A stretch of DNA of 64,000 nucleotides from Artemia franciscana (lineage: Eukaryota; Arthropoda; Branchiopoda; Anostraca; Artemiidae): NCBI RefSeq assembly GCF_032884065.1, contig NC_088867.1, forward strand, positions 47,132,185-47,196,184. The letters run 5' to 3'. Shown one piece after another: positions 1-56,516 of the stretch. Within the stretch, counting starts at the first letter, position 1. Each line of letters opens with the position of its first letter. A program made the translations under genes and the position numbers. The notes below the pieces were generated by a model that was not told where the DNA came from, did no database searches, and saw only the letters and a list, made by a program, of their open reading frames with translations.

Positions 1-474
1 ACCAAAAAATCGGGGGGCAACTAGCCTTCGTCCCCCGCTCTTTTTTTCTCAAAATCATTCGATCAAAATTATGAGAAAGCCATTGAGCAAAAAAAAAAAA
101 TATGCAAATTTCGTTTTGATTATTCCTCTGCGGAGAGCCAAAATCAAAACATGCATTGATTCAAAAACGTTCAGAAATTAAATAAAAAAAACAAGTTTTT
201 TCAACTGAAAGTAAGGAGTGACATCAAAACTTAAAACGCACAGAAATTACTTCGTATATGAAAGAGGCTGCTTCCTCATCAACGCCCCGCTCTTTACGCT
301 AAAGTTTTTTACTGTTTTAGAAAGAAGAATTGAGAGAAAGAGTCAAACTTTAGCGTAAAGAGCGGGGCGTTGATGAGGAAGCAGCCTCTTTCATATACGA
401 AGTAATTTCTGTGCGTTTTAAGTTTTGATGTCACTCCTTACTTTCAGTTGAAAAAACTTGTTTTTTTTTATTTA
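1..474 (+). mobile_element. 3' part of a hairpin-foldback unit
   Basis: Positions 1-178 match the spacer that precedes the last foldback in the full units at 8108-13442 (shared text such as GGGGGGCAACTAG and AATTCAAAAACGTTCAGAAA). From about 179 to 474 there is a long foldback. A left arm with ACTGAAAGTAAGGAG, CAGAAATTAC and CCCCGCTCTTTACGCTAAAG is mirrored by CTTTAGCGTAAAGAGCGGGG, GTAATTTCTG and CTCCTTACTTTCAGT, ending TTATTTAA. The two arms share copy-specific variants, for example TCATCAACGCC matched by GGCGTTGATGA. No coding potential is seen. The unit runs off the left edge of the window. Confidence 0.8.
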
Positions 475-1572
475 ATAAATTAAAATAACACCAAAATATC
501 AAAAATAGCAAGAGAAGATGTCTTCATGATGAGGTACTTAAGTTTGTAATTGAATTTGTCATATTTAGCATACCTAAATACCAACAAAATATTATTTCAG
601 GTCCCAAGAAAGTCATATTTTAAAACACTATTAAAAACGCATTTTCTTAGATGATATATGCCCCCCCCCCCTGAATGCTTGATATTACAAACAGAGTTGT
701 CACAAAAAAAACAATATCAGCTTGAAATACTGGAACTAAATCAAATAGATCCGATATGTCTTATAATTCATGGAATATAAAAGAACTAAATAGACGTTTT
801 CCATTTTCTTGGTAAAAGAAAATCGAATATTCCTGCTGATTAACTTGGTCGTCTGACTAGTAATAGTAAAACGGGAAGAAAAATTTGTGAAACAGGAAAA
901 CTGTATTCCATCGATATATAGCATTGTGGGCATTATGATCAACCCTATGAATACAAAAAAGGAGCATTAATATCCTTTCTGAAAAGAAATTCTTTTTCAT
1001 TTTTGAGTAATTCCTTTCCAAATGAATTCTTCTTCTTTGGAACCTTTGGATTATATGAATAGGCCTTTATTATAGCAAAGAAAAATCACAAAAAAGAAAA
1101 ATATTATTTTGGAGGAAATTGATAATTTATTTTTGAACTTCAGAAAATTATAAGCGGTAATTTTATGATATAGTGCCAACTAGTCATCTAAGTAGAGCCT
1201 GTTTCTCTGACGCTCAATCCTAGAAAGATGCCTAGGTATGCTAAAAATATAATACTTTAGAAACAAATTTGGGCTATATATTTACAAATTAGGGGTGGGG
1301 GATAATGTATAGCGGGTCTGCATGCCCAATGTGTTAGGTCAATTATTCTGCATATTATGAAGTAAGAACTGTTTTCTAACTTCACACTGTCCAAATACTT
1401 TACCCCCCCCTCCCTTAATAAGCAACTATATAGCCCGAATTATATATTTCCCATCTATTCTGTCACTTCTCTTTGTCTTGTCTCTCACTAAGCTGAAAGA
1501 AACCAACGCAAAACTGGTCCTACAATGCGTCACTGGATGAACAACTCGAGTGGTCAGCGCTATATAATACTA
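475..1572. other. intergenic, no gene recognised
   Basis: AT-rich sequence with a 10-nt C run near 661 and another C-rich run near 1405. Short reading frames here have no recognisable domain. I see no RNA gene or transposon end. Confidence 0.5.
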
Positions 1573-2648
1573 AATTAAAAAAACAAGTTTTTTTTAACGG
1601 AAAGTAAGGAGCCACATTAAAAATTAAAACGGACAGAAATCACTCCGTATATGAAAGGGGATGTTCCCTCCTCAACGCCCCGCTCTTTGCGCTGAAGTTT
1701 AACTCTTTCCCTCAACTCTACTTTTTAAAACAGTAAGAAACTTTAGCGTAAAGAGCGGGACGTTGAGGGGAGAACAGCCCCTTTCATATATGGAGCAATT
1801 TCTATTTGTTTTAGTTTTAATGATGCTCCTTACTTTCAGTTAAAAAAGCTTGTTTTTTTATTTGATTTCTGAACATTTTGAATTAATTCTTATTTTGATT
1901 TTGGCTCTCTGCACATAAATAATTAAAACGTAATTTGCATATTAACTGGTTTTTTTTGGCTAATTGGCTTTTTGGCTAAATGGCTTTCTCAGTTAAAGAT
2001 AAAATTATAATTCTTAGTTCAATTTGAATCACATTTATTTTATATATAAAAATCGGACGTTTTTGAGAAAAAAAGAGCTTACGTAACAAACTTCTATATT
2101 CGTATGTTTTTATTACGTATATGAGGGGGTTCTCCCCATCGTCAATACCTAGTTGCTTTACATTAAAGCTTAAATTGTGTCCCAATTCCTTAAGAATGAC
2201 CCCTGAATAACAAAGGCCGTATAATATTTAGTTGAAAATACTCAAAATACTTTAGCGTAAAGATCGAGGTATTAGGAGGAGTACCCCTTAATATGCATAA
2301 CAATTTCTGTTTGTTTAAGTTTTAATGCTGTTCCTTACCTTCACTTGAAAACACTTTTCATATTTATTTTTTCATTATTTCTTAAATAATGCTAGAAAAT
2401 CCTGCGAACCCCTTCATGGAAATTCTCCTACCCCATGACAAATTCCTCCATGAAAGGATCCTCCCCCTTTTTCTAAAATAAGGCAAAGTTTCTCAGGCTC
2501 AGAAGTTTTGATGGGTAAGACTAAACTTGATGAAACTTATATATTTAAAATCAGCATGACAATGCAATCAAAATTCCGTTTTTTAGAGTTTTGGTTACTA
2601 TTGAGCCAGGTCGCTCCTTACTACAGTTCGTTACTACGAACTGTTTGA
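1573..2648 (-). mobile_element. internally deleted hairpin-foldback unit
   Basis: Read on the minus strand, this starts at 2648 with TCAAACAGTTCGTAG and the complementary ACGAACTG (terminal hairpin). It passes through a shortened first module (about 300 bp instead of about 850), then the first foldback and spacer. It ends with the second foldback at 1573-1865 (TTAAAAAAACAAG on the plus strand). Total length is about 1.08 kb against 1.68-1.73 kb for full copies, so the loss lies in the hairpin-proximal module. No gene content. Confidence 0.75.
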
Positions 2649-3262: not shown

Positions 3263-3363
3263 AGTGTGTCCCACACAAAAACTTTACAAGCCAAATATTT
3301 TCTAAACTTTTTTTGATTTAAGTCGAAAAGCTTCTTTATACATATAATATATAAAGCTTTTTT

Positions 3364-8107: not shown

Positions 8108-9782
8108 TCAAACAGTTCGTGGTAACGAACTGTAGTAAGGAGCGATCCGGCTCACTAGTAACCGAAACTCTAAAAAATGGAATTTTGATAACAATAGATA
8201 CATCAAAAGAATCGCATTTTAATGCTGATTTTAAATGTATAAGTCTCACCAAGTTTAGTCTTACCAATCAAAAGTTACGAGCCTGAGAAAATTTACCTCA
8301 TTTTAGAAAATAGGGGGAAAAAAAACCCAAAAGTCATACAATCTTAACAAAAATCACACCATCAGATTCAGCGTATCAGAAAACCTTATTGTAGAAGTTT
8401 CAAGTTCCTATCTACAAAAATGTGGAATTTCGCATTTTTGCCAGAAGTCAGATCACGGATGCGTATTTATTTGTTTTTTTGTTTGCCCCCCCCAGGGGTG
8501 ATCGTATCGACTGAGTGGTCCTAGAAAGTCGTCAGAGGTCTCATTCTAACGGAAATTAAAATTTCTAGTGCCCTTTTTAAGTGACCAAAAAAATTGGAGG
8601 GCACCTAGGCCTCCTCCCACGCTCATTTTTCCCCAAAGTCACCGGATCAAAATTCTGAGATAGTCATTCTATTCACCATAGTCGAAAAACATACTAACTA
8701 TGTCTTTGGGGACGACTTACTCCCCCGCAGTCCCTGTGGGAGGGGCTGCAAGCTACAAATTTTGACCTGTGTTTACATATAGTAATGGTTACTGGGAAGT
8801 GTACAGAAGTTTTCAGGGGGATTTTTTGGGTTTAGGGGAGAGAGTTGAGAGGGTGGTTACGTGGATGGATATTTCCCATGGAGGAACTTCTCATGGGGGT
8901 AGAGAATTTCAATGAAGGGGGCGTAGGATTTTCTAGCATTATTTGAAAAAACAATGAAAAAATAAATATGAAGTTTTTTCTACTGAAAGTAAGGAGCAGC
9001 ATTAAAACTTAAAACGACAAAAATTATTACGCATCTGAGGGGTTTACCTCCTCGTTATACCTCACTCTTTACGCTAAAGTATTTTTAGTAATTTCAACTA
9101 TTTATTCTACGGCCTTTGTGATTCAGAGGTCATTCTTAAGGAATTGGGACACAATTTAAGCTTTAGTGTAAAGAGCGAGGTATCGATGAGGGTTGAACCC
9201 CCTCATATACGCAATAAAAACATACGAATATAGAAGTTCGTTGCGTAAGTTAATTCGTAAGTTACGTATATTTTTTACCAATGAAAACGTTTGTAAAAAA
9301 TTAAAAGTTCTAGTTGCCTTTTTAAGTAATCAAAAAATTGGAGGGCAAGTAGGCCTCCTCCCTCGCTTGTTTTTTCTCAAAATCTTCCGATTAATTACAA
9401 TTAATCAATATGCAAGTTTCGTTTCAATTATTTACGTGCGGAGAGTCAAGATCAAAACATACATTAATTCAAAAACGTCCAGAAATTAAATAAAAAAAAA
9501 AAAGTTTTTTTTAAATGAAAGTAAGGAGCAAAATTAAAACTTAAAACGAACAGAAATTACTCCGTATACGAAAGGGGCTTTTCCTCCTCGACGCCCCGCT
9601 CTTTACGCTAAAGTTTCTTACTGTTATAAAAAGTAGAGTTAAGAGAAAGAGTCAAACTTTAGCGTAAAGAGCGACGCGTTGAGGAGGGAAAGCCCCTTTC
9701 ATATACGGTGTAATTTCTGTTCGTTTTAAGTTTTAATGTTGCTCCTTACTTTCATTTAAAAAAACTTTTTTTTTTTATTTAA
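8108..9782 (+). mobile_element. hairpin-foldback unit, tandem copy 1
   Basis: Full-length unit of 1675 bp. It starts TCAAACAGTTCGTGG with a 9-bp stem and GGTA loop, followed by AGTAAGGAGCGA. Next comes a module of about 850 bp without genes, then a first foldback at about 8975-9225 (CTCACTCTTTACGCTAAAG mirrored by CTTTAGTGTAAAGAGCGAGG). A spacer of about 260 bp and a second foldback at about 9486-9782 follow, ending TTATTTAA. Short frames inside it are not conserved between copies, so it looks non-coding and non-autonomous. It is followed by about 220 bp containing a (TA)n tract before copy 2. Confidence 0.8.
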
Positions 9783-10005: not shown

Positions 10006-11720
10006 TCAAACAGTTCGTGGTAACGAACTGTAGGCCTAGTAAGGAGCGATCCGGCTCAATAGTAATCGAAAATCTAAAAACGGAATTTTGATACCAATCG
10101 ATACATAAAAAGAAAAAGACTTTAATGCTGATTTTGAATATATAAGTTTAACAAGTTTAGTCTTACCCATCAAAAAGTTAAGAGCCTGAGACAATTTCCC
10201 TTATTTTAAATAAAAGGAGAAAACACGCTCTAACAGTAATAGAATCTTAATGAAAATCTCACCATCAGATTCAGCGTATCAAAGAACCCCACTACAGAGG
10301 GTTCAAGCTCCTATTTGCAAAAATGTGGATTTTTTTTTGTCAGAAGAAAGATCACGGATGCGTGTTTATTTGTTTTTTGTTGTTGTTTTTTTCCCAGGGG
10401 TGATCGTATCAACCCAATGGTCCTAGAATGTCGCAAGAGGGCTGATTCTAACAGAAATTAAAAGTTATAGTGCCCATTTCAAGTGACAAAAAAATTTAAG
10501 GGCAACTAGGCCCCCTCCCACGCTCATGTTTATCGCAGTCACCGGATCAAAATTTTAAGATGACCATTTTGTTCAGCATAGTCGAAAAACATGATAACTA
10601 TGTCTTTGAGGACAACTTAATTCCCCATAATCCCCAGGGGAAGGGCTACAAGTTATGAACTTTGCCCATTGTTTACATATGGTATTGGTTATTGGGAAGT
10701 ATATAGACGTTATCACGGCGGATTTTTTCTGGTGGTGAGGGGTCGGGTGGAGGGGGTTCCGTTTTAGTATCTGTTCATGGAGGAATTTATCATGGGAGAA
10801 GAGAATTTCCACGAAGGGGGTGCTGGATTTTCCAGCATTATTTAAAAAACGATGAGAAATTAAATTAAAAAAAGTTTTTTTCAACTAAAAGTAAGGAGCA
10901 ACATTAAAACTTAAGACCAACAGAAATTATTACGTATATGAGGGAGTTCGTCCCCTCCTCAATACCTTGCTGTTTACTTTAAAATATTTTTAGTAATTTA
11001 AAAAGAGCTATTTATTCTAATTAAACGGCCTTTGTGATTCAGGGGTCATTCTTAAAGGATTGGAACGAAATTCGAACTTTAGCGTAAAGAGCGAGGTATT
11101 GACGAGGAGGCGAAACCCCTCATATACATAATACAAGTATCCGAATACAGAAGTTCTTTACGCAGGTTAGTTCGTAAGTTACGTACATTTATTACTAATA
11201 AAAACGTTCTTAAGTAAAATTGAAAGTTCTAGTGTCCTTTTATAAGTAACCAAAAAAATTGGAGGGCAACTAGGCCCCCTCCCCCACCCCTTTTTCGCAA
11301 AATCGTCCGATCAAAACTTCGACAAAGCCATTTACCCCAAAAAAATAAATTAATCTGCAAATTTCCTTTTGATTATATGCACGATGAGCCAAAATCAAAA
11401 CCTGCATTAATTCAAAAACGTTCAGAAATTGAATAAAAAAAGAGTTTCTTTAACTGAAAGTAAGGAGCAACATTAAACTAAAAATGAACGGAAATTATTC
11501 CGTATATGAAAGGGACTGTCCCCTCCTCAACAACCCGCTCTCTACGCTAAAGTTTGACTCTGTCACAACTCTACTTTTTAAAACAATAAAAACACTTTAT
11601 CGTAAAAAGCGGGACGTTGAGGAGGGGACAGCCCCTTTCATATACGGAATAATTTCCGTTCGTTTAAGTGTTAGTGTCGCTCCTTACTTTCAGTTTTAAA
11701 AAACCTGTTTTTTTATTTAA
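10006..11720 (+). mobile_element. hairpin-foldback unit, tandem copy 2
   Basis: 1715 bp with the same order: terminal hairpin (here followed by a 6-nt insertion, AGGCCT), non-coding module, first foldback (about 10870-11130), spacer, second foldback (about 11430-11720). Its last bases TTATTTAA are joined directly to the TCAAACAG start of copy 3, with no intervening base. The ORFs inside (for example 10573-10884 minus and 11484-11699 plus) lie in repeat sequence and are not credible genes. Confidence 0.8.
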
Positions 11721-13442
11721 TCAAACAGTTCTTGGTAACGAACTGTAGTAAGGAAGGCTCAATAGTAAACGAGACTCTAAAACACGGAATTTTGATGCGA
11801 AAAGATACATCAAAAGAATTGGATTTTCATGCTGATACTAAAATATATAAATTTCAGCAAATTTAGTCTTTGTCATCAAAACTTAGGAGCCTGAGAAAAT
11901 TTGCCTTATTTTGGAAAATAGGAGGAAACACCCCCTAAAAGTCATAGAATCTTAACGAAAATCACACCATCGCATTCGGCGTATCAGAGAACCCCAAAGC
12001 AAACTTTTCAAGCTCCTATCTACAAAAATGTGGAGTTTCGTATTTTTTTGCCAGAAGACAAATCACGGGTGCGTGTTTATTTTTTTTTTTATCTTTTCCC
12101 CAGGGGTCATCGTATCGACCAAGTGGTCCTAGAATTTCGCAAGAGGGCTCATTCTAATGGAAATGAAAAGTTGTAGTGCCCTTTTTAAGTGATCAAAAAA
12201 TTGGAGGGCACCTAGTCCCCCTCCCACGCTCATTTTTCCCAAAGTCAACGGATCAAAATTTTGAGATAGCCATTTTGTTCCGCATAGTCGAAAACCATAA
12301 TAACTATGTCTTTCGGAATGACTTACTCCCCCATAATCCCTGGGGGAGGGGTTGCAAGTTACAAACTTTGACCAGTGTTTGCATACAGTAATGGTTATTG
12401 GGAAGTGTACAGACGTTTTCAGGGGGATTTTTTTGGTTTGGGGGTGGGGTTGATGGGAAGGGGCTACGTGGGAGGATCTTTCCTTGGAGGAATATGTCAT
12501 GGGGGAAAGTAAAATCAATTAAAAGGGCGCAGGATTTTCTAACATTACTATAAAAAAAAACATGAAAACATTTTTTTCAATTGAAAGTAAGGAGTAGCAT
12601 TGAAACTTAAAACGAACAGAGATTATTACGCATATGAGGGGTTCTAAAAATACTTTAGTATAAAGAGCGAGGTATTTAGGAGGAGATAAATACCTCGCTC
12701 TTTATGCTAAAGTATTTTTTGTAATTTCAACTATTTATTCTACAGCCTTTCTAATTCAGGGGTCATTCTTAAAGAATTGGGACAAAACTTACGATTTATT
12801 GTAAAGAGGGAGGTATTAAGGAGGGTACAAACCCCCTCGTATACATAATATAAATATAAGAATATAAAAGTGTGTTATGTAAGTTAATTCTTAAGTTACG
12901 TATATTTTTTACTAATAAAAACGTTCGCTAAAAATTAAAGTTCTAGTTGCCTTTTTAAGTAACCGAAAAATTGGAGGGCAACTAGGCCTCCCTCCCCACC
13001 CCTTATTTCTCAAAATCGTCTGATCGAAACTAAGAGAAAGTTATTTAGCCAAAAAAAGAATTAATATACAAGTTTCATTTCAATAATTTATGTGCGGAGA
13101 GCCAAAATCAAACATGCATTAATTCAAAAATGTTCAGAAATTAAATAAAAAAAAAAAATAGTTTTTTTTTAGCTGAAAGTAAGGAGCGACATTAGAACCT
13201 TAAACGAACGGAAATTACTCCGTATATGAAATGGGCTGTCCCCTCCGCAATCCCTCGCTCTTTACGCTAAAGTTTGACTCTTTGCCACAATTCTACTTTT
13301 TAAAACAATTAAAAGCTTTAGCGTAAAGAGCGAGGGATTGCGGAGGGGACAACCCATTTCATATACGGAATAATTTCCGTTCGTTTAAGGTTCTAATGTC
13401 GCTCCTTACTTTCAGCTAAAAAAACTAGTTTTTTTTATTTAA
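11721..13442 (+). mobile_element. hairpin-foldback unit, tandem copy 3
   Basis: 1722 bp. It starts TCAAACAGTTCTTGG, so one base of the hairpin stem is mismatched. The first foldback region contains an extra small hairpin at about 12640-12715 (GCGAGGTATTTAGGAGGAG next to AAATACCTCGCTC). The second foldback, 13146-13442, carries the distinctive CCGCAATCCCTCGC arm matched exactly by GCGAGGGATTGCGG. The same derived features occur in the inverted copy at 28389-30119. Confidence 0.8.
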
Positions 13443-22628: not shown

Positions 22629-23470
22629 ATATATATAAAAATAAGTTGTCTGTGTGTGGATCTGTGGATCAGATGACGTCATGTTTGTTCGCATATGACG
22701 TCTGAATTATTTCACACTAATACAAAAGAAGAAAAAAACTAAAAAAGGTAAAAACTACGAAAAAAACTAAAAAGAAAAAAAAACTAAAAAAGCTAAAAAA
22801 CTAAAAAAAAACTAAAAAAAGGTAAAAATCTAATAACTAAAAAAAAACTGAAAAAAATAAAAAAAGGCAAAAACTACAAAAAAATAAAAACTAATAAAAA
22901 AACTAAAAAAGCTAAAAAACTAAAAAAAAACTAAAAAAAGGTAAAAAACTAAAAAAAAACTAAAAACTAAAAAAGAAAAAACTAAAAAAAAGGAAAAAAC
23001 TGAAAAATAAAAGAGAAAAAGAAAACTAAAAAAATATGAATAAATATATATAAAAATAAGTTGTTTGTGGGTTATGTCTGTCTGTCTGTCTGTCGAGTGA
23101 CGTCGTGTTTGTCCGCATATGACGTCTGAATTATTTCACACTAATACAAAAGAAGAAAAAAAACTAAAAAAGGTAAAAACTACAAAAAAAAACTACAAAG
23201 AAAAAAAACTAAAAAAGCTAAAAAACTAAAAAAAACTAAAAAAAGGTAAAAAACTAAAAACTAAAAAAAACTGAAAAAACTAAAAAAAGGCAAAAACTAA
23301 AAAAAAAACTAAAAACTAATAAAAAAGCTAAAAAACTAAAAAACTAAAAAAACTAAAAAAACTAAAAAAAGGTAAAAAACAAAAAAAAAAAAACTAAAAA
23401 CTAAAAAAGAAAAAACTAAAAAAAAGGAAAAAACTGAAAAATAAGAGAAAAAGAAAACTAAAAAAATATT
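22629..23470. repeat. tandemly duplicated Helitron 5' region with CTAAAAAA repeats
   Basis: Two blocks about 420 bp apart each begin TATATATAAAAATAAGTTGT. Each then carries GTTTGTYCGCATATGACGTC and TGAATTATTTCACACTAATA, followed by several hundred bp of AACTAAAAAAG-type low complexity. The second block (about 23044) lacks the TC terminus, so only the first is a genuine element end. Confidence 0.8.
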
Positions 23471-23514
23471 AATAAATATAAAAAATATAAATATAAATAT
23501 AATATAAATTAGCA

Positions 23515-24060
23515 ATCAACAAAGCACCGAGACACAAATGACGACCGGGACACAGGGAGTATAAATGACGACCAGGACATAAGTAAAAAAAAAAAACTAA
23601 AAAAACTAAAAAAATGGTAAAAACTACAAAAAAACTAAAAACTAATAAAAAAACTAAAAAATCTAAAAATCTAAATAAACTAAAAAAGAAAAAAAAGAAA
23701 AAAGGAAAAAAATAAAGGAGAGAAACAAAACTAAAAAACGAATGTATATACAGACCGGGACACCGGGATACAAATGACGACCGGGACACAGGGAATATAA
23801 ATGACGACCGGGACACAGGGACACAACTACAATGGGGACGCCGGGGGGCACAGGGGGATATAAATGACGACCGGGACACCGGGACACAAGGAATATAAAT
23901 GACGCCCGGGACACTCAAAGAGAAATCACAGACTGGAACACCGGGACACAAATGACGACCGGGACACAGGGAATATAAATGACGACCGGGACACAGGGAC
24001 ATAACTACAAAGGGGACGCCGGGGTGCACAGGGGGATATATAAATGACGATGGCGACTCA
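23515..24060. repeat. GACGACCGGGACACAGGG minisatellite inside the Helitron
   Basis: Irregular tandem copies of ATGACGACCGGGACACAGGG, alternating with GAATATAA and with ACACAACTACAATGGGGACG blocks, interrupted by an A-rich patch at about 23585-23740. On the minus strand it yields a repetitive CPGRHLYSLCPGRHLCPG-type frame of 207 codons, which is a repeat artefact. Confidence 0.85.
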
Positions 24061-24069
24061 GGGAATGGT

Positions 24070-24263
24070 CGATTAGCAATCACCATCAACAAAGCTCAAG
24101 GGCAATCATTAGAATCATGAGGTATAGATCTGAATACGGATTGTTTTCCCATGGACCATTATATGTTGCATGTTCAAGAGTCGGTAAACCTGACAATCTA
24201 TTTATATGCACAGACAATGGGACAGCAAAGAATGTTGTATATTCGCAAGTTTTACGTAGTTAA
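24070..24263 (+). pseudogene. Helitron helicase C-terminal remnant
   Basis: The plus strand reads RLAITINKAQGQSLES, an in-frame TGA, then GIDLNTDCF. After a one-base frameshift it continues HGPLYVACSRVGKPDNLFIC and then NVVYSQVLRS with a TAA at 24261-24263. The TINKAQGQ-L and LYVACSRV patterns are helicase motifs V and VI of the Pif1-type helicase in Helitron RepHel proteins, which unwinds DNA during rolling-circle transposition. Only about the last 64 residues survive, with one nonsense and one frameshift mutation, so it is dead. It lies just upstream of the element's 3' end, as expected. Confidence 0.85.
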
Positions 24264-24363: not shown

Positions 24364-24480
24364 ATATTCACAGGTGGGACATAGGGACACAACTACAATG
24401 GCGCGTAACTAATATGGCGCGTAACGACTTACGCGCGCGGGGGGGCTTGGGGGGGCGCGAAGCGCCCCCACCAACTAGGT

Positions 24481-24514
24481 GTTGGGGTGGCGCGAAGCGC
24501 GACCCCAACAGCTA

Positions 24515-24515
<1 letters not shown>
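24481..24515 (+). other. Helitron 3' terminal hairpin and CTAG end
   Basis: The stem GTTGGGGT pairs with ACCCCAAC, with an inner GCGC-GAA-GCGC stem-loop, followed two bases later by CTAG at 24512-24515. In Helitrons this hairpin signals termination of the rolling-circle strand transfer. A related GC-rich palindrome (GGGGGCGCGAAGCGCCCCC) lies about 30 bp upstream at about 24450-24470. Confidence 0.85.
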
Positions 24516-24567
<52 letters not shown>

Positions 24568-26120: not shown

Positions 26121-26410
26121 ATAGATAACTTCGAAGACCACACTGCCTTTCCATGACGAAAGTAAAACAGTTCAAAATAGGGATGATACCTTTTTATTGA
26201 CAGTGAAATATAAAATTATTTAACTGGATATTTCGAACACATATACAGTGTTCATCATCAGCAGTAAAACTCAAAAAAATCAGCAGTAAAAGCAGAGTTT
26301 TACTGCTGATGATGAACACTGTATATGTGTTCGAAATATCCAGTTAAATAATTTTATATTTCACTGTCAATAAAAAGGTATCATCCCTATTTTGAACTGT
26401 TTTACTTTCG
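26121..26410. mobile_element. foldback MITE with 12-bp flanking direct repeats
   Basis: Near-perfect inverted arms at 26160-26275 and 26293-26410 (GAAAGTAAAACAGTTCAAAA mirrored by TTTTGAACTGTTTTACTTTC; ATTTCGAACACATATACAG mirrored). CCTTTGGTATAC occurs at 26109-26120 and again at 26411-26422, bracketing the element as a target duplication would. The left side has about 40 bp (ACCACACTGCCTTTCCATGA) beyond the right arm. A second family member is at 51241-51423. No coding content. Confidence 0.75.
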
Positions 26411-26522
26411 CCTTTGGTATACAGGTTCATAAAAATGAAAAAATAGGGCCATACTATTGGCTGATCCGTATGTTTGTTCGCGCAAGATTTGGTTTACATA
26501 CCATACAAAATAATATATAAAT

Positions 26523-27204: not shown

Positions 27205-28388
27205 GGTGTTGAAGTTTGACTCTTTTTCTGTTTTACTTAAAACAGTAAAAAACTTTAGCGTAAAGAGCAAGGCGTTGAGGAGGGAACAGCCCCTTTCATA
27301 TATAGAATAATCTCTGTTCCTTTTAAGTTTTAATATCGCTCCTTACTTTCAGTTAAAAAAACTTGTTTTTTTTTTTAATTTCTGAACGTTTTTGAATTAA
27401 TGAATGTTTTGATCTTGACTCTCCATACATGAATAATTAAAACGAAATTTGCATATTAATTTATTTTTATGGCTAAATGGCTTTCTCATAGTTTTGATCC
27501 GACGATTTTGAGAAAAAAGGAGCGGGGGAGTAGGCCTAGTTGTCCTCCAATTTCTTGGTTATATAAAAAGGCAACTAGAACTTTTAATTTCTTACAGACG
27601 TTTTTATTAGTAAGAATATACGTAACTTACGAATTAACTTACGTAACGAACTTCTAAAATTGTATGTTTTTATTACGTATGTGAGGGGTTCATCCCCTCG
27701 TCAATACCTCGCTCTCAGAAAGGCCGTAATCAGAATTAATAGTTGAAATTAATAAAGTTACTTTAGCGTAAAGAGCTAGGTATTAGGAGGAGGTGAACCC
27801 CTCATATACGTAATAATTTCTGTTCTATTTAAGTTTTAATGCTGCTCCTTACTTTCAGGTAAAAAGAACTTTTTGATATTTATTTTTTTATTTTTCTTTA
27901 AAAAACTGCTATAAAATCCTGCGCCTCCTTCATGGAAATTTTCTTCCCCCGTGGAAAGATCCCCCGCATAGCCCCCTCCTTTCAACCACTCCCACCAACC
28001 AAAAAATCCCCCTGAAAGCGTCTGTACACTTCCCAATAACCATTACTATGTGTAAACACTGGCCAAAGTTTGTAACTTGCAGCCCCTCCCACGGGGACTG
28101 TGGAGGAGTAAGTTGTCCCCAAAGACATAGTTATTAGGTTTTTCGATAATGCTGAACAAAATGGCTATCTCAAAATTTTGATCCGTTGACTTTGGAAAAA
28201 ATGAGCGTGGAAGGGGGCCTAGGTGACCTCCAATTTTTTGGTCACTTAAAAGGGCAGTAGAACTTTTCATTTTCGTTAGAATGAGCCCTCACACGACATT
28301 ATAGGACCAATGGGTCGATATGATCACCCCTGGGGAAAAAAAACAAACAAACAAATTAATACGCATCCGTGATCTGTCTTGTGGCAAA
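27205..28388 (-). mobile_element. hairpin-foldback unit (host copy), distal part
   Basis: Minus-strand unit whose second foldback is truncated (27205-27380, one arm plus loop). The spacer (27380-27660), first foldback (to about 27850) and part of the non-coding module (to 28388) follow. It breaks off within the module at ...TGTGGCAAA, where the younger unit 28389-30119 is inserted. It resumes at 30120. Confidence 0.75.
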
Positions 28389-30119
28389 TTAAATAAAAAA
28401 AAACAATCTTTTTAGCTGAAAGTAAGGAGCGACATTAAAACTTAAAACGAACAGAAATTACTCCGTATATGAAATGGGTTGTCCCCTCCGCAATCCCTCG
28501 CTCTTTACGCTAAAGCTTTTAATTGTTTTAAAAAGTAGAATTGTGGCAAAAAGTGAAACTTTAGCGTAAAGAGCGAGGGATTGCGGAGGGGACAACCCAT
28601 TTCATATACGGAGTAATTTCTGTTCGTTTTAAGTTTTAATGTCGCTCCTTACTTTCAGCTAAAAAAATTAGTTTTTTTTTTTATTTAATTTCTGAACGTT
28701 TTTGAATTAATGTATGTTTGATTTTGGCTCTCCGCAGATAAATTATTAAAATGAAATTTGTGTATTAATTCTTTTTTTGGCTAAATGGCTTTCTCTTAGT
28801 TTTGATCAGACGATTTTGAGAAATAAGGGGTGGAGAAGGAGGCCTAGTTGCCCTCCAATTTTTCGGTTACTTAAAAAGGCAACTAGAACTTTTAATTTTT
28901 AACGAACGTTTTTATTAGTAAAAAATATACGTAACTTAAGAATTAACTTACATAACAAACTTTCATAACCTTATATTTTTATTATGTATACGAGGGGGTT
29001 TGTACCCTCGTTAATACCTCGCTCTTTACACTAAATCGTAAGTTTTGTCCCAATTCTTTAAGAATGACCCCTGAATCAGAAAGGCTGTAGAATAAATAGT
29101 TGAAATTACTAAAAATACTTTAGCATAAAGAGCAAGGAATTTATCTCCTCCTAAATACCTCGCTCTTTATGCTAAAGTATTTTTAGAACCCCTCATATGC
29201 GTAATAATCTCTGTTCGTTTTAAGTTTCAATGCTACTTCTTCCTTTCATTTGAAAAAACGTTTTCATGTTTATTTTTCATTGTTTTCTTATAGTAATGCT
29301 AAAGAATCCTGCGCCCTTTTCATTGAATTTTTCTTCCCCCATGACAGATTTCTCCAAGGAAGATCCTCCAACATAGCCCCCTCTCCTCAGCCCCACCCCC
29401 AAACAAAATAAAATCCCCCTGAAAACGTCTGTACACTTCCCAATAACCATTACTATATGTAAACACTGGTCAAAGTTTGTAACTTGCAGCCCCTCCCCCA
29501 GCGATTGTGGGGGAGTAAGTCATCCCCAAAGACATAGTTATTATGGTTTTCGACTATGCTGAACAAAATGGCTATCTCAAAATTTCGATCCGTTGACTTT
29601 GGGAAAAAATTGAGCGTGGGAGGGGGCCTAGATGCCCTCCAATTTTTTTGGTCACTTAAAAAGGGCACTAGAACTTTTCATTTCCGTTAGAATGAGCCCT
29701 CTTGCGACATTCTAGGACCACTTGTTCGATACGATGACCCCTGGGAAAAAAAACAACAACAAAAAAACAAACAAATTAACACGCACCCGTGATTTGTCTT
29801 CTGGGAAAAAATACAAAATTCCACATTTTTGTAGATAGGAGCTTGAAACTTCTACAGTAGGGTTCTCTGATACGCTGAATCTGATGGTGTCATTTTCGTT
29901 AAGATCCTACGACTTTTAGGGGGTGTTTCCCCCTATTTTCCTAAATAAGGCAAATTTTCTCAGGCTCGTAACTTTTGATGATGAAACTTATATATTTAAA
30001 ATCAGCATTAAAATGCGATTCTTTTGATGTAGCTATTGATATCAAAATTCAATTTTTTAGAGTTTTGGTTACTATTGAGCCGGGTCGCTATATACAGTTC
30101 GTTACCACGAACTGTTTGA
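28389..30119 (-). mobile_element. hairpin-foldback unit nested in another copy
   Basis: Full 1731-bp minus-strand unit. On the plus strand it starts TTAAATAAAAAAAAAC. It carries the second foldback (28389-28687, arms with CCGCAATCCCTCGC / GCGAGGGATTGCGG), a spacer, the first foldback with the extra small hairpin (about 29110-29190), the module, and the terminal hairpin ending ACGAACTGTTTGA at 30119. The flanking host sequence reads GGCAAA before and AAATACAAAATTCC after. Rejoined, this gives the uninterrupted A6 found at about 29804, so no target duplication was made. Confidence 0.85.
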
Positions 30120-30448
30120 AAATACAAAATTCCACATTTTTGTAGATAGGAGCTAGAAACATCTACTGTGGGGTTCTCTGATACGCTGAATCTGAGGGTG
30201 TGATTTTCGTTAAAATTCTATGACTTTTAAGGGGCGTTCCCCCTATTTTCTAAAATGAGGCAAATTTTCTCAGGCTCGTAACTTTTGACGAGTAGGACTA
30301 AACTTGGTGAAACTTATATATTTAAAATCAGGATTAAAATGCGATTCTTTTGATGTAGCTATTGGTATCAAAATTCAATGTTTTAGAGTTTTGGTTACTA
30401 TTGAGCCGGGTCGCTCCTTACTACAGTTCGTTACCACGAACTGTTTGA
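30120..30448 (-). mobile_element. hairpin-foldback unit (host copy), hairpin end
   Basis: Continuation of the host unit interrupted at 28388: AAATACAAAATTCCACATTT through the module to the terminal hairpin (ACAGTTCGT, TACC loop, ACGAACTGT) ending at TTTGA, 30448. Together with 27205-28388 it forms one older, nearly complete unit. Confidence 0.8.
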
Positions 30449-30837: not shown

Positions 30838-31053
30838 AGGCGTTTCCCCCTATTTTCTAAAATAAGGCAAATTTTCTCAGAATCGTAACTTTTGATGGGT
30901 AAGTCTAAACTTAACAAAACTTATATATTTAAAATCAGCATTAAAATGTGATTCTTTTGATGGAACTATTGTTATAGAAATTCCGTTTCTTAGAGTTTCG
31001 GTTAATATTGAGCGGAGTCGCTCCTTACTACAGTTCGTTACCACGAACTGTTT
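30838..31053 (-). mobile_element. hairpin end fragment of another unit
   Basis: About 215 bp matching the hairpin-proximal module (TTTCCCCCTATTTTCTAAAAT, ATATTTAAAATCAGCATTAAA) and ending with CTCCTTACTACAGTTCG and the complementary ACGAACTGT. A short related fragment also lies at 30478-30600. Confidence 0.7.
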
Positions 31054-31088
31054 TAAAATTAGCTTCGGTTAAGTTGAAATCTAAGTTT

Positions 31089-31319
31089 AGGTATATTTTT
31101 ATTAATATACTTAATATATAGAGATGATATTTTGGTTGGGTTAGGTTACGTTAGGTATTTAATATAATGTGTTCTGTGCGAGCCCCCTGCCATAATCCTT
31201 AGTTGTAGTTTCCATAATTTTGTTACTAAAGTATTGTATTTTCATTATATTTTGGTATATTTCATTATAATTAACCTAACATCACTTCTCGAGTGTGTAC
31301 TGGCTAAGACACAAGTATC
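31089..31319. mobile_element. truncated MITE, GGTACTTGTG family
   Basis: The right part matches the copy at 7331-7688 (CATAATTTTGTTACTAAAGTA, TATTTCATTATAATTAACC, CTCGAGTGTG). It ends GACACAAGTATC, the inverse of the family terminus. The left terminus is missing or diverged. Confidence 0.55.
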
Positions 31320-32694: not shown

Positions 32695-33520
32695 AGGAGT
32701 TCACAACTTTTGAAGTGTAAATAATTTAATATGAATTTTGCACGACTTTGCAACCGGCTGGTATGCGTTAGGTGACATTTTATCAATTCAGAAAATGTAA
32801 TTCTAACTTTAAATCGTCACTATAAGCATTTTTCCATCCTATTTTACTTTTTGTTATTTTAGATTGTTTATCGTATATTTTATTGCTTCAAAAAACTTTT
32901 TGTAACGTTCAAATTAATTACTTTGTGCTTTTAAAAATTATATGCTCTTTTTGTATGGCTTCGCCTGTGTTTTGTTTGGTATTCTCATCTTCTTTGTTAC
33001 AGATGAGAAAGGTCCTTGAAAGCAGGATCGAAATATTTTGCTTTCTCTTTAATTTTTCCCCTTATTAGTGACAAAAACATGCACGCATTAATTTTCGACG
33101 GTCATGTAACATTTTAAGTCTGAGAATTTGACAATTGCTAAAACATGGACATTACTGTCCTAGTATGTCGAGGCAAGATTCTTGTGGTAAAAAAAAATTA
33201 AACACAACTCTGTTTTATACTTCCACATTTTAAATGTTTACTGTATCATCACACCAGGTCTCAAATCACTGAGGCCTATCTGCGCACATAAGGCAGGGCG
33301 TGAAGGGGCGACTGATTACCCAACAATAAACATGTATGCAAGAGGGCTTTTTGTTTATGCCCCCCTCCTATTGCCTATTTTGCTTTTCGATTATGAGCCC
33401 ACACCACCGAATTGAATCCCTGCATAAGCCTACCCCACGTATAGAATCTCCTAATGCACCCTTAAGGGTCAGGGCTATGGTACCTACACAATACAAAGAA
33501 CCGGCATTAGAAAGATATCC

Positions 33521-33523
<3 letters not shown>

Positions 33524-33567
<44 letters not shown>
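33524..33567. repeat. poly-A run
   Basis: 44 consecutive A. The matching run in copy 2 is 56472-56515. The preceding 110 bp may be the body of a SINE or other poly-A-tailed insert, but no clear Pol III boxes are visible. Confidence 0.9.
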
Positions 33568-33571
<4 letters not shown>

Positions 33572-36500
33572 GTGTTTGATGAGAACTTGACGTCACGTCA
33601 CCATGATTTAGATCACTTAATATTAAAATAAATATTTCTAACCTAAAATTTGACCCTGTAAAGGGGAAGGGGGGCTAACAACCGAAACTTTGATGTTCGA
33701 TCAGAAAAACAGCTTACATGCATTTATCAGCAAAAAAATTTATCTGTGAAAATGCAGTGGAAAGGGCCATGATTTCGCTAATTTTACAACGAAGTTACCC
33801 TTAGGAGACATTGGTCCAAAGTCACTGGAATGCCACGATCTGGAATCTAAAAGTCGAATAGATTACAATTCCTGGTCACACACAGAAATCTGGTCTTAAG
33901 GGTGAGCTATTCAGGTCCAGAATTGAAGCTGTGACGCTTCTAGGCCAAGCGGTTTCGCAACACCGTTTTTGCAAAATTTTCAGGAAAATCTCCAAAAATT
34001 AGGGAATAGTAGAAGCATTGAAGAGAACGCAACTGATACAGAATTCCTGTATTGCTTTAAAATCACTTTCTTGTGAATAACCAGCGCGGTGGCGGAGTAC
34101 ACCCGGCTCTTTCATGATAAATCACCAGCGATAATTTATTGCACCCCCGACCCAGGCCTGTTGGTAAATCTGGGCTTGGGGTAACATTCAACACCTTGGT
34201 AATTTTAGGAAAGTGCTCTAACTTACTTCTTGTTTTGCTAACCAAAGAAAAGACAAAAAATAGTGAAATGTATAGCAGGCTTTTCTTCTATTAATTAAAA
34301 GTTATCCAAGCAAGGATGTTTTATACCAAGAACTAAATGATACTCTGAATGACGATTACGATCAACCACCTGGAGTATAAATCTCGGTTTAAAAAATATT
34401 GAGTTAAAACACAGCCAATTTGCATTGTTTACTACTTCAACAGAATAAAAGGAATAACTGGTAGTCCCTTGTTACCATAAACCACTAAATTACTGTTTTA
34501 CCTTGATAAGAACTTAAGTAAAAACGTCATACCATTAGTCAAGAATTTTTAACGAACTACTCTTATCGTTATTACAAAAAAATTATGAGCAAGAATAAAT
34601 AAAATGGAAAATACTATTCAATAGCCCAATGTTTAAAGAAACTCGAATGGTCCCCTTTAAAGCAGAACTTGTATCTACCTATCGGGTCAGAATAGGACTT
34701 ATGTCCTGACCAGATCCAAAATTAAAATAAAATTATGTTTGAAACAAAAGGTTATTAATCTTATCTTATCTGCCATGTTTTGAAGAATTTAGCTCTGAGA
34801 CAGGGAAGCGACGGAAGTTCGAAAAAAAGTACAAAAATACACACATCATATGTAAAATATTAGAAATTATGCAGAATTTTGCCGGGGCAAAGGACCCACC
34901 CATAGCATATTTTGCCCGTATTTTGCAATTTCTCTACCCTGTGACGCGTAGACATTACCCCCATTCATTAATTTGTTCATATAAAACATTAATTTGTTCC
35001 CATAATTTTCGGTAAGTTCTACATGGTATGCTGTTTCTGAATTTTGACGAACATAAAAAAAAAACATTCCTTATATCCCCTGAACTCATAAACAATTGCA
35101 AGGACCAATTAGTCAAAGAAATAACGTAACATGTGTTCCTAATAAGGTATCGTGGATGGCATCTATAACAACCGAGGGGGTTCCTATGCTATTACTAGTG
35201 TCCCTGAAGTATGTCAATAAAAGAATTATCTAAATTATCAAAGCAACAGCTTTCATATGACTGATCGTTCAATGTATTGTTCAAGGATTTTATTCAGGTT
35301 TTCCCATATTTTTTTCACGGCTTTAAGAGTAGGACTAACGGGTAATTAATTACCGTCGAATGCCTAGACCTCTGCAAGGTTTGTGCTAGATAGAAAAATA
35401 ATTACTACTTAAGCTCCATTGCATTTAGCGTAAGTATTGCTGTAGATTGTATGGTGTTTTAAAAGATACACACCTATTCAGGCTAATAGGTTTTTATAGA
35501 TGATACACATTATGTCAAATATTTCAAAAATTGAGAAAAGGATTTGAATAAGTTTAGTCACACAGAAACAACTGAACTTCCAGAACCAAAATATTGGGTT
35601 CTTAAAAGAAAAATGTCACATTTTTGACGTTTTACTCCCTTTACCCACCATCCCAAACGAACTTCATGCGCACCTTACTGCCGTTTATCACCAGCTAATC
35701 CATGGTAGGTCATCAATTCCCAAAGAAAATGACATGCCATATATAAAGAAAATTACTTTCAACGATTGCATTATATGTATCCGAACATTACTATTATATC
35801 TAATTCAAGATAAGATTTTCGTGTTTAGCCCAATATGATCTTCTCACGACAAACAATACACTTGAATGAATAAGTAGGCTGAAGCCCTATTATAAATATG
35901 AGTGTATAATTAATAAAAAAGCAGACCTTGAACTCTTAAGAAACAAAAAAAGGCACTCTAAAGTAAGGACCACTGGGGGCTTATAGAACCAGTGAAATTC
36001 TATTCAAATGGACGAGATTTGAAAAGAGGATAGAGACCGCTTGTAGTTTTAGTTTACAACCATCTAGATGAGCTGTTTCTTAGCTTGAACCTGTTATGGG
36101 ACAGTGGAACTGATCTTTTTGGAATCAGCAAAAATTTGGCAGTTACAATGCGTTTTCTCATTGATTGATCGAAATATAAGATTTTTGAACTTATCCTTTA
36201 CTAACACACTGCTAAGAGCAAATCATTTACCTAGATACTAAAGCTCAAATGAATATAAATGTGGCCAAGTTATATCGGCTTTGACTAGCTGATTGTGTCT
36301 CAAAAAAAAAGACTTCAAAAAAAAAAAACTACACACATGAACAGTGGAAAATACCCATACTTTCAGACACTGGAACGAGCATTTTTTCTTCAATATTGGC
36401 ACTCTTGAAAGCACATCGTTGCAGATAGGCACATTTCAGAAACGTACGCAAGTAACGAAAACCCCACTGTTAATCTCACCACAACCTCTTCTATTTGATC

Positions 36501-39500
36501 ATTTCTCGGGAAACCCATGACAAAAATGAACCAAAGGAGATCAGTTCGTCATTATGTTCTGTAGCCTCAACAGCTGATATACTCTAATGCCAACACTAAT
36601 AACATCAAAATAAGGTGGATGTCTGATTAACGGTCAAAACATGCTCAACGATTGACCTGGGTCTTGCCATCATAGGACACTGGCTGAACCAAACTTGTTT
36701 ACCTGTTCGGCCAAAAATAGGCGAATTTTGAAATGTTTTTGAAAAAAGTGCTCAAGTTAGTTATTATAAAAATCCATTTTCGTGGAAATCCTAGAAAAAC
36801 TATTTAGCTTCTCCCGTTTTGTGATGGAGGGATATTTAGATACATCATTAGTGTTTTTTTTTTCGACTGAACAGAGTATGATTCTTTTGAAAGTTCATGA
36901 TAGAACCGTCCCTGAAAATACTCTAGCATACCTGCTTGGAAAACATTAAAGATCACCGTACCGCTTCAGAGAGCTTTTGGAGTTCCCTTTTGTACCACCG
37001 AAGTTGATTCAAAACTTTGTAGACACAAAAATATTATTCATGCTGAATGTACACTGAACAAACAGCGCTTTGCTAACAATTAGGGAGACTACGTCTTCTT
37101 TTTTTTTTATCTAACCTCTCGTTGGCTTTTCAAAATGTAGACACTTAAGATCACCTATCAACATTTACCAAATTGCTCTTAAAGTTCCCTGTGACAGAAT
37201 TCTTTAATAGGCCGTTTCTTTGAGATGGTCAGCCGATGCTTTTTGACAACGTTTATAGCAATTTCATTTCCAGGCTAGTCTTTCTGTCACCTAAATATTA
37301 GAAAAAAACTGAAAAATTGACCGGTTGATGGACTTAAATATGGTAACACTAAAAAAATAAGTAATTCTTACAGGCAAGGATGTTCAGGGAGGAATCAAGC
37401 ACCACCCTGCCCAAACAGCCAAAAATAAAACTTAAATTTTACTATTTAGTGTGACGCTCGTCTAAAGAAAAACAATTTAAAAAATTATCCCCCCCCTAAC
37501 TAATTGTCCACAGCCTGCTCCCCAGTAAGATATTCTGTGGTAGGACTTATTTAGAGTGGAAGCTTATTTATTTAGCTGATTTAAGCATAAAATACATTTA
37601 CCAAGTATTTTCACAAGCAGAAAAAAAGGAACCTATTATATTCTTTAGAAACCAAAACAACTTCCAAACCACATTAAAACGGAGCGGATGAATCAATGCA
37701 ACCTGCTCAGCTAAAATAGAGCAAAAAAATGTCAATCCCTAAAATTTAGTTTGAATAGGCTGAATGATTGCTTGGAGTTTCCGATATCAAAGTGTTTTTT
37801 TTTTCTTCCAAGGCAATTACTTTCGAACTTACAAGTTCGTATTGCCTACCAGTCTTCTAACGTTGCTGTCCAAAGAAGTCAAAAAGGCCAGTTAATGCTC
37901 ACAATTTATTTACTGTACAAAACAAGCATCTCCTATTCAATAAATCCGTGGAGAACAAAAATATCTGTACATTCGCGCATTTATACACATAAAAGGAAAT
38001 GCACCTGTCAATAACAGATGGGAAAGGGGGGAACGCCTAGTCCACCAATTCACGAACGCTCGACCGCACGATACGAAAACAAAAGAAAAATCTACAAATA
38101 AACTTTAAAATTATATATATATAAAAAGCACTCTTTTGAGATACATTTAGATATCGAATTTCGTCGGACGTTCAAAATTTACAATTCGACTATCTACAGA
38201 ATTAAATGAACAAAATCACAGGCTTTCTATAAAGAATTCTTTGTACCTTTCCAAAAAAGGGGGATAATCAGTCGTATCGTTGAACGGTGACGAGTACTGC
38301 AAAAACAGACATAAAATTGAAGTCACCATTGACAATCACGAGTAAGACTTTCAGCTCAAAGAGCTGAAGGCTTTATTCTTCATCAAACGAGACTGAAAAC
38401 AGTAAGAGCTTAAAGCAAGTTTTTTTTTATTTTTTAGTTTAATAGAAAAATTCGAGTATCTGAACTTCAGAAACATAATCATATTTAAAAGTAAATTATT
38501 AAGCTTTCATCAGTTACTGTTTTCTGCTCCGCCTGATTTTAGCTTTTGGACATCGAACAAACGCCCAAATGTTTCTGACGCACAGCCATTTCAAAAACTT
38601 GTCAAATCCGGCAACACTGACCAGAGTAAAATAAATAGTCTTTAAAAAGGATCACAAATATTACGGTGTACAAGAAAACAAAAGTTGCAGTCGTGTACTT
38701 CCATTTTGAGGTAAAGAATAAAGAGGAGTTTGGTGAAAGTACAACCTATATAAGACAATGATGGTTCCCATTTCCACGTCAATGCTAGAAAAAAAACAAA
38801 AAACAATAAAACTAACCTACCAATATTTTTATAGATACTCAAATAGTTTACTTCAAATTTTAAAGAGATGCTACGAATATAGAACTTCTAAATTCTGAAA
38901 TAAACAGTTGTAGAAGCATAGAGATGGTAGAAATGGGAGTAATAAAAAAAAAGAAGAAAAAGAACCTATCACTGGTTTGAAAAAAACGGTACAAAACCGC
39001 AATTGGCCAAGCCTTTTCCAACAGACTAGTGTTAGTAGACAAACAGACAGAGAGCCAGCCAGGTTAGCAAACACTGAAATCACAGCACTGAAAACTTCTT
39101 TGCTCGACTGCTTGTTTGAGATTCGCTCTTGAACTTGGTCCCAAACAACTCCATAATAAAAAAGGGAGAAAAACACGTCGATTTTAGTTAAAAACACACA
39201 ACTGGAACACTTTATTATCTTGTACTCACAGGTAAATAATTTGTGTTGCACAATCAAGCAAGCTTCATCCACATTTGCCGGAATAGGGACACCATAAGAT
39301 GAGAAATAAGCGTCAACTGCGGCTTCAGAAAATCATGCGGTTATAATTTAGACCGTGTTTAGGTTTGAAGTCTTTTTATGAATGAGATCACAGCACAAAA
39401 ATCGAGGATCGATATCCTCAGGCTTTCCCCACTTTCAAGGGGAGGAGTCTCTTGGAGGAAACTATGGGAAGATCCAACACATCTTATGTCAAGGAATTAA

Positions 39501-39592
39501 GGCAGTCAGGTTGCTTTGAATCCTTCCCCTGGTTTCTAACAAGGGGGCTTCTCCCCCATCTATCACCAACAGGTGAGCCACTCGACGCCAGC
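33568..39592. other. low-copy sequence, no additional gene recognised
   Basis: Sequence downstream of BTG (on its strand), conserved in copy 2. It probably includes the BTG 3' UTR; AATAAA on the minus strand at 39211-39216 is one candidate polyadenylation signal, about 380 bp past the stop. Frames at 34063-34245, 38871-39272 and others have no domain, and being repeated in copy 2 only reflects the duplication. Confidence 0.5.
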
Positions 39593-48130: not shown

Positions 48131-48916
48131 TAAAATCACTCGTTTCAGCCCCTTCTCGATGCAGAGTTGTGCTGAATAATCCCTTGTGTTGTCTTAAGTA
48201 ATTATATAGCTTTTTTTACTTTATCAATAGTATTAGCTATATAATCAATGAGCTGAAATGATATACTTTTGTTTTCATAGATGCTCCTTAAAACTGCACC
48301 ATCATCAAGGGTGACTATTTATGATTTTTGGAAGGATTTGGTCTCTGCTAGTTCTTTATTTTTACTCTAGTATATTGAAAGAGTACTTTTATGGAGCCAG
48401 TGGAATCCTTTCAATTTTCTATGTGAAAACTGAGCTCCATGTAAGCAACTTTCATGGAGTAATTCTTGCACCTCAATTTTCCTGTTTTTACCGAAGCATC
48501 ATATAATGATGTTAACAATCAAAATTATTGATTCATATATTGAATGAAGAAGAGATGAACTATGTATAGTCAAGAATATAACTGGATCTGAAATTTAAAC
48601 TAAATTTTCTTAGCCAAGAACCGTGAATTTTGGGACTCATGGGTCGCAACTGCGGAACAAAACAAGCGATAATGTATATCAGTTTGGCCTTTAATTCTCT
48701 AAAGGTACAACAGAAGTCCATTACGCTAACCCCTACCGTATTCATTTGAGATCAAATACGCTTTTCATATGGATACGAATGACAAGAATCTACCCCTTCC
48801 CCAAAAAAAGATCCAATCGACCACGGTTACCCCAATACTACTGTAGCTTTTGAACAGGTTTTGCTCAAGAAATTCCACAAGACCTCCTAGCAATTAGGCT
48901 TAAGACAGGATTAAAT

Positions 48917-49100
48917 AATAAAAAAAACTACTTTTTAACTGAAAGTAAGGAGCAACATTAAAACTTAAAACGAACAGAAATTACTCCGTGTATGAAAGGG
49001 GCTGTTCCCTTCTCAACGCCTCGCTCTTTACGCTTCAGTTTGACTCTTTCTCTCAATTCTACTTTATTAAACAGCAAAAAAACTTTAACGTAGAGCGGGG
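48917..49100 (+). mobile_element. truncated second foldback of a hairpin-foldback unit
   Basis: A left arm with AACTGAAAGTAAGGAGCAAC and CTCGCTCTTTACGCTTCAGT, a loop, then a partial right arm (GTAGAGCGGGGTGTTGAGAA) that breaks off at about 49100. Confidence 0.75.
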
Positions 49101-49909
49101 TGTTGAGAAGGGACCACAAGACTACATAACACCAAGGCCATAAAACGACAAAACTATGAGCAGAACTTTAACTTCTCATCAACTTAGTTTGGAAAGAACA
49201 TTCCTTCTGGTTGAAGAGCCTAAAACAAGAGCTTATAGAACCTCCTTCTTCCTCCATCCCAGTGGTTGAATCAACCTCCAGTTTTGAAAGACATAACTAG
49301 AACACTAATTGTCACTCATGACATGGGTAGCCTAAATTGGAAAAGCATTTTTGGCTGTTTTCAAATGATATAAATTTTAAGAACCCTCCCCTTCCCAAAA
49401 AAACAAACAGATGGAGTTCATATTTAAATAGGCGTAAATTAAAAATCATTTTGTACTTCCCATGCAATTTCGTCAAGACCTAACAACTTTTTCTGGTAAA
49501 TATCATGATGAAAAGAATTTTGGACTCACTTCCCCATATCGGTTACACCGTTTACAAAATCTTTACAGAAGTAACTATCACAGTTACTCTTACTTCCCAG
49601 CCAAGTTTGATTAAGACCCACATCTCGTTCTGGCCAAGGCTCTGACAGTAAGAATATATTCCTCTCCTCACAAAGATCAAAATGGACACAGGATCCCAAA
49701 AGGCAAACTATACCAATTACTCTTATTTATGATAAAGTTTTACTGATATCCGATTACCCTGTTAGCTAGATGTTCTGGTATAAAATACAAGAGCTAAGAG
49801 CTCATATGGCACTTGTGACGAGGCAAGAAGAGCTAAGAGCCAAGAGCTCTAACAAAATTCTAAGAATGAATAGATTGATTTAGAAGGAAAATCAGAGGCT
49901 TAATGCAGA
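49101..49909. other. intergenic, no gene recognised
   Basis: Repeat-like text (TTCCCATGCAATTTCGTCAA, CATATCGGTTACACC) that appears related to the satellite that follows. No gene is seen. Confidence 0.4.

Positions 49910-56468: not shown

Positions 56469-56516
<48 letters not shown>

Follow-up and report, generated by a model that had tools for sequence, protein, structure and literature searches.

A recently spread non-coding repeat family of Artemia franciscana with a long 3' foldback, probably a Helitron2/Helentron-type rolling-circle transposon

What kind of mobile element is a 1.73-kb unit of Artemia franciscana that sits inside another copy of itself? The unit, called c1 here, lies in the window, namely the whole 64,000-nt stretch of DNA that was analyzed, and a first-pass annotation had described it as a non-coding insertion into A6 with no target duplication and as an atypical, Helentron-like rolling-circle element. 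We confirmed that the unit is real and represents one copy of a dispersed repeat of ~1.73 kb, and that both flanks of c1 are parts of an older copy (c7), as expected if the unit interrupts its own family. Its non-coding nature also held; in the majority sequence of 34 near-full copies, the longest stop-free stretch was 75 aa, as compared to a mean of 80 in shuffled sequences (n = 100), and hence no frame is longer than chance. The family furthermore gave no match in viral, bacterial, and phage collections or in Rfam. The members found in the window are summarized in the table; compared by BLAST with the full copies on the opposite strand, c1 was 89.7% (c2), 81.2% (c3), and 78.3% (c4) identical. 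The head-to-tail pair of c4 and c2 was considered as a rolling-circle concatemer, but this was rejected: c4 and c2 are only as similar as noted in the table, versus 92% for c2 and c1, and they belong to two subfamilies.

Table. Members of the repeat family in the window and structural features of c1 (positions count from the first letter of the window)
Feature	Position	Strand	Basis or remark
c1, the element under study	28389..30119	-	from TCAAACAG (30119) to TTATTTAA (28389); BLAST copies, 33 other near-full genomic copies
5' hairpin of c1 (22 nt; 9-bp stem, 4-nt loop), beginning 4 nt inside the 5' terminus	30094..30115	-	folding
3' asymmetric inverted repeat of c1, partner of the 5' AGTAAGGAGCGAC	28421..28433	-	13 nt
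3' foldback of c1 (300 nt), 3' end present twice in inverted arrangement, ~127 nt each	28389..28688	-	folding
Foldback loop of c1 (43 nt), orientation B	28516..28558	-	reverse complement in c3, c5, c6
c7, host copy, 3' part, own 3' end lost	27212..28388	-	BLAST/alignment
c7, host copy, 5' part	30120..30448	-	BLAST/alignment
c2, full copy	11721..13442	+	directly 3' of c4, a single T separating TTTAA from CAAACAG
c4, full copy	10006..11720	+	80% identical to c2
c3, full copy	8108..9782	+	
c5, internal deletion and mutated 3' end	1571..2648	-	
c6, 3' part only, cut by the window edge	1..475	+	foldback arms 100% identical
c8, 5' fragment	30839..31055	-	
c10, 3' foldback fragment	48911..49107	-	

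Searching the genome (1,270,528,402 bases in 6,468 contigs) with c1 returned 8,955 first-look candidates, the best 40 of which were scored; 38 stretches containing 39 scored places outside the window were then fetched, so that the genomic sample described below is biased to c1-like copies. Among the 34 near-full copies obtained from these best matches (c1 included), 25 differ from the majority sequence by 0.06-0.51%, and the remaining nine, to which c1 belongs with 2.7%, by 2.2-4.8%. The sequences flanking the near-full copies vary, and the copies are therefore separate insertions; given that 25 of the 34 are within 0.51% of the majority, the family has transposed very recently. The best 40 places also include copies that lack the 5' side and retain an intact 3' end, with at least 190 nt missing in three of them (L012, L033, and L046) and ~30 nt in two (L019 and L043). 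At one locus (L031; C141:119000-127000), two very young copies share one orientation and are separated by a few hundred bases.

Both termini of the family are structured, and they do not resemble each other. Read in the TC-starting sense, the family starts with TCAAACAG and ends with TTATTTAA. The annotated TC start on the minus strand and the hairpin near that end are both real; the order at the 5' end is TCAA, the hairpin, and then AGTAAGGAGCGAC directly inside. The hairpin folds with a z of -4.1 in c1, and two other copies gave -4.0 and -4.5; in each case none of 200 shuffled sequences folded as well. At the opposite end, the CTRR of canonical Helitrons is missing, as had been noted; c1 terminates in TTATTTAA, as do, with single-base variants, the genomic copies matching to the end, and a CTRR with a hairpin ~11 nt upstream was not found. 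Folding with RNA parameters detected a weak A/T palindrome inside the last 30 nt of the 3' end.

The only inverted repeat that we found between the two ends is subterminal and asymmetric. In a young copy at L031, its two halves occupy positions 27-39 counted from the 5' terminus and 34-46 counted from the 3' terminus and match at 13 of 13 positions, a score that was reached by 2 of 2000 mononucleotide shuffles. The repeat was reached by 5, 0, and 5 of 500 shuffles in c3, c4, and c5, respectively, and was not significant in c1 (356 of 500) and c2 (68 of 500), in both of which the 5' copy is decayed; in c1, what is left of it is AGCGAC at 30084-30089.

A feature that the first-pass annotation had not mentioned is the 300-nt foldback at the end opposite to the TC start, which folds with a minimum free energy of -147 kcal/mol (z of -30). 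Each arm is a complete 3' end in inverted order, so that the element has two 3' ends that confront one another. The 3' module also recurs farther inside in diverged form, which suggests that the element may have grown further by repetition of this module.

How the two arms are kept alike was examined in the six window copies and then in the fetched loci. The arms of c1 and c6 each have no mismatch in the 98-position core while c1 and c6 differ from each other by 15%, and in the younger of the six copies the arms are far more alike within than between copies; in c4 and c5 the arms have drifted to 89.6% and 84.5%, respectively, and arm identity in the six copies was scored as 100 to 84.8%. Among the 98 arm pairs, 21 take two or more Watson-Crick states in these six copies. 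When arms were reassigned among the copies, the true assignment alone of 720 reached 549 pairs, the next best reaching 548. Correction of the arms at each transposition, as suggested by the six copies, was nonetheless rejected, given that a shared mismatch passes uncorrected: of the 41 scored arm pairs from the fetched loci, 27 have one G/A mismatch in common, at arm position 95, and the mean number of arm differences (n = 41) was 1.73 within a copy versus 1.62 (left) and 1.42 (right) between copies. Since so many pairs share one mismatch, the exchange between arms is episodic and not tied to each transposition, and homogenization is visible only between subfamilies. Such a pattern is expected if inverted repeats that lie close together recombine or serve in template switching.

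The foldback loop of c3, c5, and c6 is reversed in orientation relative to that of c1, c2, and c4. Loops could be read at 52 places, seven in orientation A and 45 in orientation B, most of the latter being c1-like young copies; when 20 of these places were arranged in a tree, orientation B did not form one clade, with weak support for the deep branches. Rolling-hairpin (flip-flop) replication was also considered as the origin of the inverted loops and rejected, as the c1-like copies among the 52 places are in orientation B and ordinary recombination or template switching is enough to invert a loop.

The mode of insertion was then read from empty sites. Copies were aligned and paralogous empty sites were sought, as the first-pass annotation had proposed; 60 + 60 bases of joined flank from the 33 copies with both ends (including c1 and also L010, in which the first three bases are altered) were matched against the window plus the fetched loci. 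Seven of the 33 joined flanks gave a paralogous match across the join, and 26 had no match in that limited set. At six of the seven sites (c1, L010, L021, L022, L034, and L039), the insertion is exact, with neither duplication nor deletion of the target; the seventh, L015, shows a difference of three Ts in a poor gapped match to paralogs of 77-78% identity. The annotated A6 can indeed be rebuilt from GGCAAA on the left and AAATACAAAATTCC on the right of c1, but this site alone is compatible with an event of 1-2 nt, because the length of the run varies from 5 to 9 among the aligned copies. It is the five other exact sites, all away from long runs, that carry the case for insertion with no target duplication.

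In terms of target sequence, T directly follows the 3' end in all 39 genomic copies that match to the last base; 41 copies were considered, and L009, which is devoid of its last bases, and L018 were excluded as their matches stop short. T also follows all seven readable 3' ends within the window, one of them mutated. The T-T target proposed earlier is hence right on the 3' side, but the base before TC (n = 32) is mostly A (21) and less often T (7) or G (4), with no C. The target is thus mostly A^T rather than simply T-T; among the exact empty sites, L010, L021, L034, and L039 are A^T, and c1 and L022 are T^T. A T on either side of the unit [CAAACAG...TTTAA] is formally equal to a duplication of 1 bp.

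Beyond the T, the target contains a purine tract at +8 to +12. Purines were found at +10, +11, and +12 in 35, 35, and 36 of the 39 sites, respectively (binomial p of 3.5e-7, 3.5e-7, and 4e-8, uncorrected for 20 positions). Five consecutive purines within +6 to +14, a range picked after the tract had been seen, occur at 26 of the 39 sites versus 1-12 (mean 6.3) at control offsets of 30-180 in the same flanks. Pairing between the target and the T-run located just inward of the 3' end of the element might select this tract, although we regard this idea as doubtful. IS200/IS605 elements select their targets partly via DNA base pairing; if the idea is true, the family would be a eukaryotic rolling-circle element that does so.

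Taken with the exact insertion, the hairpins, the asymmetric repeat, the 3' T, and the missing CTRR, the earlier reading of an atypical, Helentron-like rolling-circle element is supported as the best fit, and the family is probably a non-autonomous transposon of the Helitron2/Helentron type (HINE-like). We call the family Helitron2/Helentron-like rather than a proven member of that group, because the position of the repeat differs from that of described elements and the search for a RepHel bearing the same ends turned up none. HINE/DINE-1 elements as described in PMC4067079 are similarly non-coding; their inverted repeats are subterminal and 12-15 bp long, a palindrome lies near the 3' end, and they enter T-rich targets with no duplication. 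The family follows this pattern in its exact insertion at a site with T on the 3' side (and mostly A on the 5' side) and in the weak palindrome plus foldback near its 3' end. Differences from the same description are that the HINE repeats are spaced 2-4 nt (5') and 38-60 nt (3') from the termini, as compared to 26 and 33 nt for the 13-nt repeat here; that their palindrome is 5-10 bp in contrast to a 300-nt 3' foldback; and that the family prefers A^T over TT.

The Helitron2 elements of Bao and Jurka (PMC3627910) share with the family hairpins at both ends, asymmetric inverted repeats, and a T at the 5' end, while their repeats are placed 0-2 bp from the 5' end, within the hairpin, and ~20-30 bp from the 3' end; our 5' repeat begins immediately beyond the hairpin, at position 27. 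In the same source, Helitron-1N1_CRe inserts before T or C with no duplication, and three related CRe elements have duplications. FoHeli1 and FoHeli2 of Fusarium, which are of the Helitron2 type, begin with TC followed by a hairpin, have an inverted repeat 38-51 bp from an A/T-rich 3' end, and show reconstructed sites with no duplication, all of which resemble the family; they differ in that they encode RepHel and end in ATATTTT, and a long 3' foldback is not mentioned in the accessible text of PMC5148889. Canonical Helitrons such as Helraiser also start with TC and insert at A^T with no duplication but, as portrayed in PMC4778049, have a CTRR end, one 3' hairpin, and neither a 5' hairpin nor an inverted repeat, unlike the family examined here.

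Helitrons are reported to occupy 8.81% of the A. franciscana genome, and the accessible text of that genome paper (PMC11492255) does not describe the family. In the open-licence literature, represented mostly by titles and the beginnings of abstracts, we found no description of the family, of a Helentron-like element with a long 3' foldback, or of the purine tract; six exact repeat words of the family were also absent from open-licence literature texts.

Proteins with a Helitron_like_N domain are abundant in the genome; from 7,435 first-look candidates, 150 were scored, all of which were above the cut-off and many of which lie in frames of >1,500 aa. The top 20 loci represent one family, with L047 being 94.6-96.9% identical to the other 19 over 0.9-2.4 kb and parts of some pairs being 87-90% identical. 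A 1,159-aa frame combines Helitron_like_N with the start of a PIF1 match just under the cut-off. A RepHel gene flanked by the same ends, which the first-pass annotation had proposed to look for, was not found among these top 20 loci, none of which has similarity to c1 within 1.5 kb. Also, tblastn with the 1,159-aa frame at E 1 gave no match in the window, L001-L046, or L067, and L067, chosen for the end of one Helitron_like_N member, contains no coding frame of that member. By eye, a canonical Helitron 3' end is present in the window at 24380-24517 (GTTGGGGTGGCGCGAAGCGCGACCCCAAC hairpin and then CTAG followed by T), and the abundant family appears to have the same kind of end, a GC-rich hairpin with CTAG, as judged there and at L047. 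Upstream, at 22640-24100, A-rich and ACCGGGACACAGGGA tandem arrays are found that by eye are like stretches near the RepHel loci L047, L055, and L061.

DUF6570, which we take to belong to RepHel proteins, marks a second, low-copy class of candidates, with 47 matches from 59 first-look candidates, five of which are in frames of 2,446 to 2,701 aa; long DUF6570 frames lie at C6:2729223, C76:536697, C3032:14381, C10:1769458, and C4112:12028. An autonomous partner of the Helentron type would combine RepHel with an endonuclease and share the ends of the family; a search for OTU gave two matches of eight candidates, neither near the DUF6570 loci. Flanks were probed downstream of two members. The 2,001 bases of L068 contain an old fragment of the family (69-71% identity over ~120 nt) and a TA repeat, with no recognizable end. 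In the 941 bases of L069, a foldback with 127-nt arms shows a weak motif match to the family (1 and 0 of 1000 dinucleotide shuffles). It was considered as the 3' end of a partner and rejected as an independent dispersed repeat; in a comparison by eye of its 40 scored places, the query place alone was near a DUF6570 place. This foldback repeat (L069 1-585; C10:1776400) has 1,351 first-look candidates and is ~99% identical in the 40 scored, and its arm and that of our family share a motif of 23-31 nt.

Other modes of movement need to be weighed against these data. Foldback elements commonly carry long inverted repeats, and the T on both sides of the exact empty sites could be taken as a 1-bp duplication, so that a DDE transposase might be moving the family as a MITE or foldback element. 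To our knowledge, a one-base duplication is not a feature of any known DDE family; the two ends here are dissimilar, their sole repeat is subterminal and asymmetric, and terminal inverted repeats with duplications of at least 2 bp were not found in the family. The targets described for HINEs, furthermore, look alike (PMC4067079), and we consider a DDE mechanism very unlikely. A SINE-like or other retroelement would account for the copies that lack the 5' side and have intact 3' ends, but near-full copies dominate, there is no target duplication and no 3' A-tail in the TC sense, and the invariant T after the 3' end speaks against it as well; this origin is hardly credible.

A closer alternative keeps the rolling-circle mechanism and changes the enzyme, i.e., the family would be moved in trans not by a Helentron-type protein but by the RepHel of the abundant and apparently canonical Helitron (Helitron1). 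That family is young and largely intact, judging from the scores and long frames given above, and our family shares the starting TC and the landing mostly at A^T with canonical Helitrons (PMC4778049). The abundant family, however, appears by eye to end in the hairpin with CTAG, whereas ours lacks CTRR and features an inverted repeat plus a 5' hairpin, and no end sequence in common was found within 1.5 kb of those RepHel genes; we thus regard this enzyme as an unlikely source. The Helitron2/Helentron-type reading has its own counter-points, namely that no RepHel with the ends of the family was found at the top 20 Helitron_like_N loci (1.5 kb) and that the 5' repeat lies 26 nt inside and not at 0-4 nt as in the described Helitron2 and HINE elements.

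If the Helitron2/Helentron-type reading is correct, a RepHel protein of the HUH, two-tyrosine class, provided in trans, would make a nick in front of the TC at the hairpin end and then replicate and peel off one strand. The subterminal inverted repeat and the palindromes would mark the 3' end at which this process stops, with the foldback possibly acting as the terminator, and the single-stranded or circular intermediate would be joined between a non-C base (mostly A) and T with no duplication of the target. A recently mobile family with ends of the Helitron2/Helentron type in an easily kept laboratory animal would make this largely inferred mechanism testable with natural ends, a target rule, and a terminator; the extended target motif and the homogenized, sometimes flipped foldback give concrete predictions on the way in which the 3' end is recognized and joined.

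Several other features were observed in the window. A foldback element with ~100-nt arms and a short loop was recognized by eye at ~26190-26411 (GTTCAAAATAGGGATGATACC), and a frame for a LINE-type reverse transcriptase (RVT_1) lies at 52959-53930. Another short dispersed repeat family is found at 31141-31317, 3360-3535, 7519-7688, and 46778-46893, with GGTTAGGTT-like motifs by eye. Finally, 33410-41057 and 56358-64000 form a direct duplication of 7.66 kb with 99.2% identity, which carries a BTG-family gene (39596-40162) and is either a recent gene duplication or an assembly duplicate.
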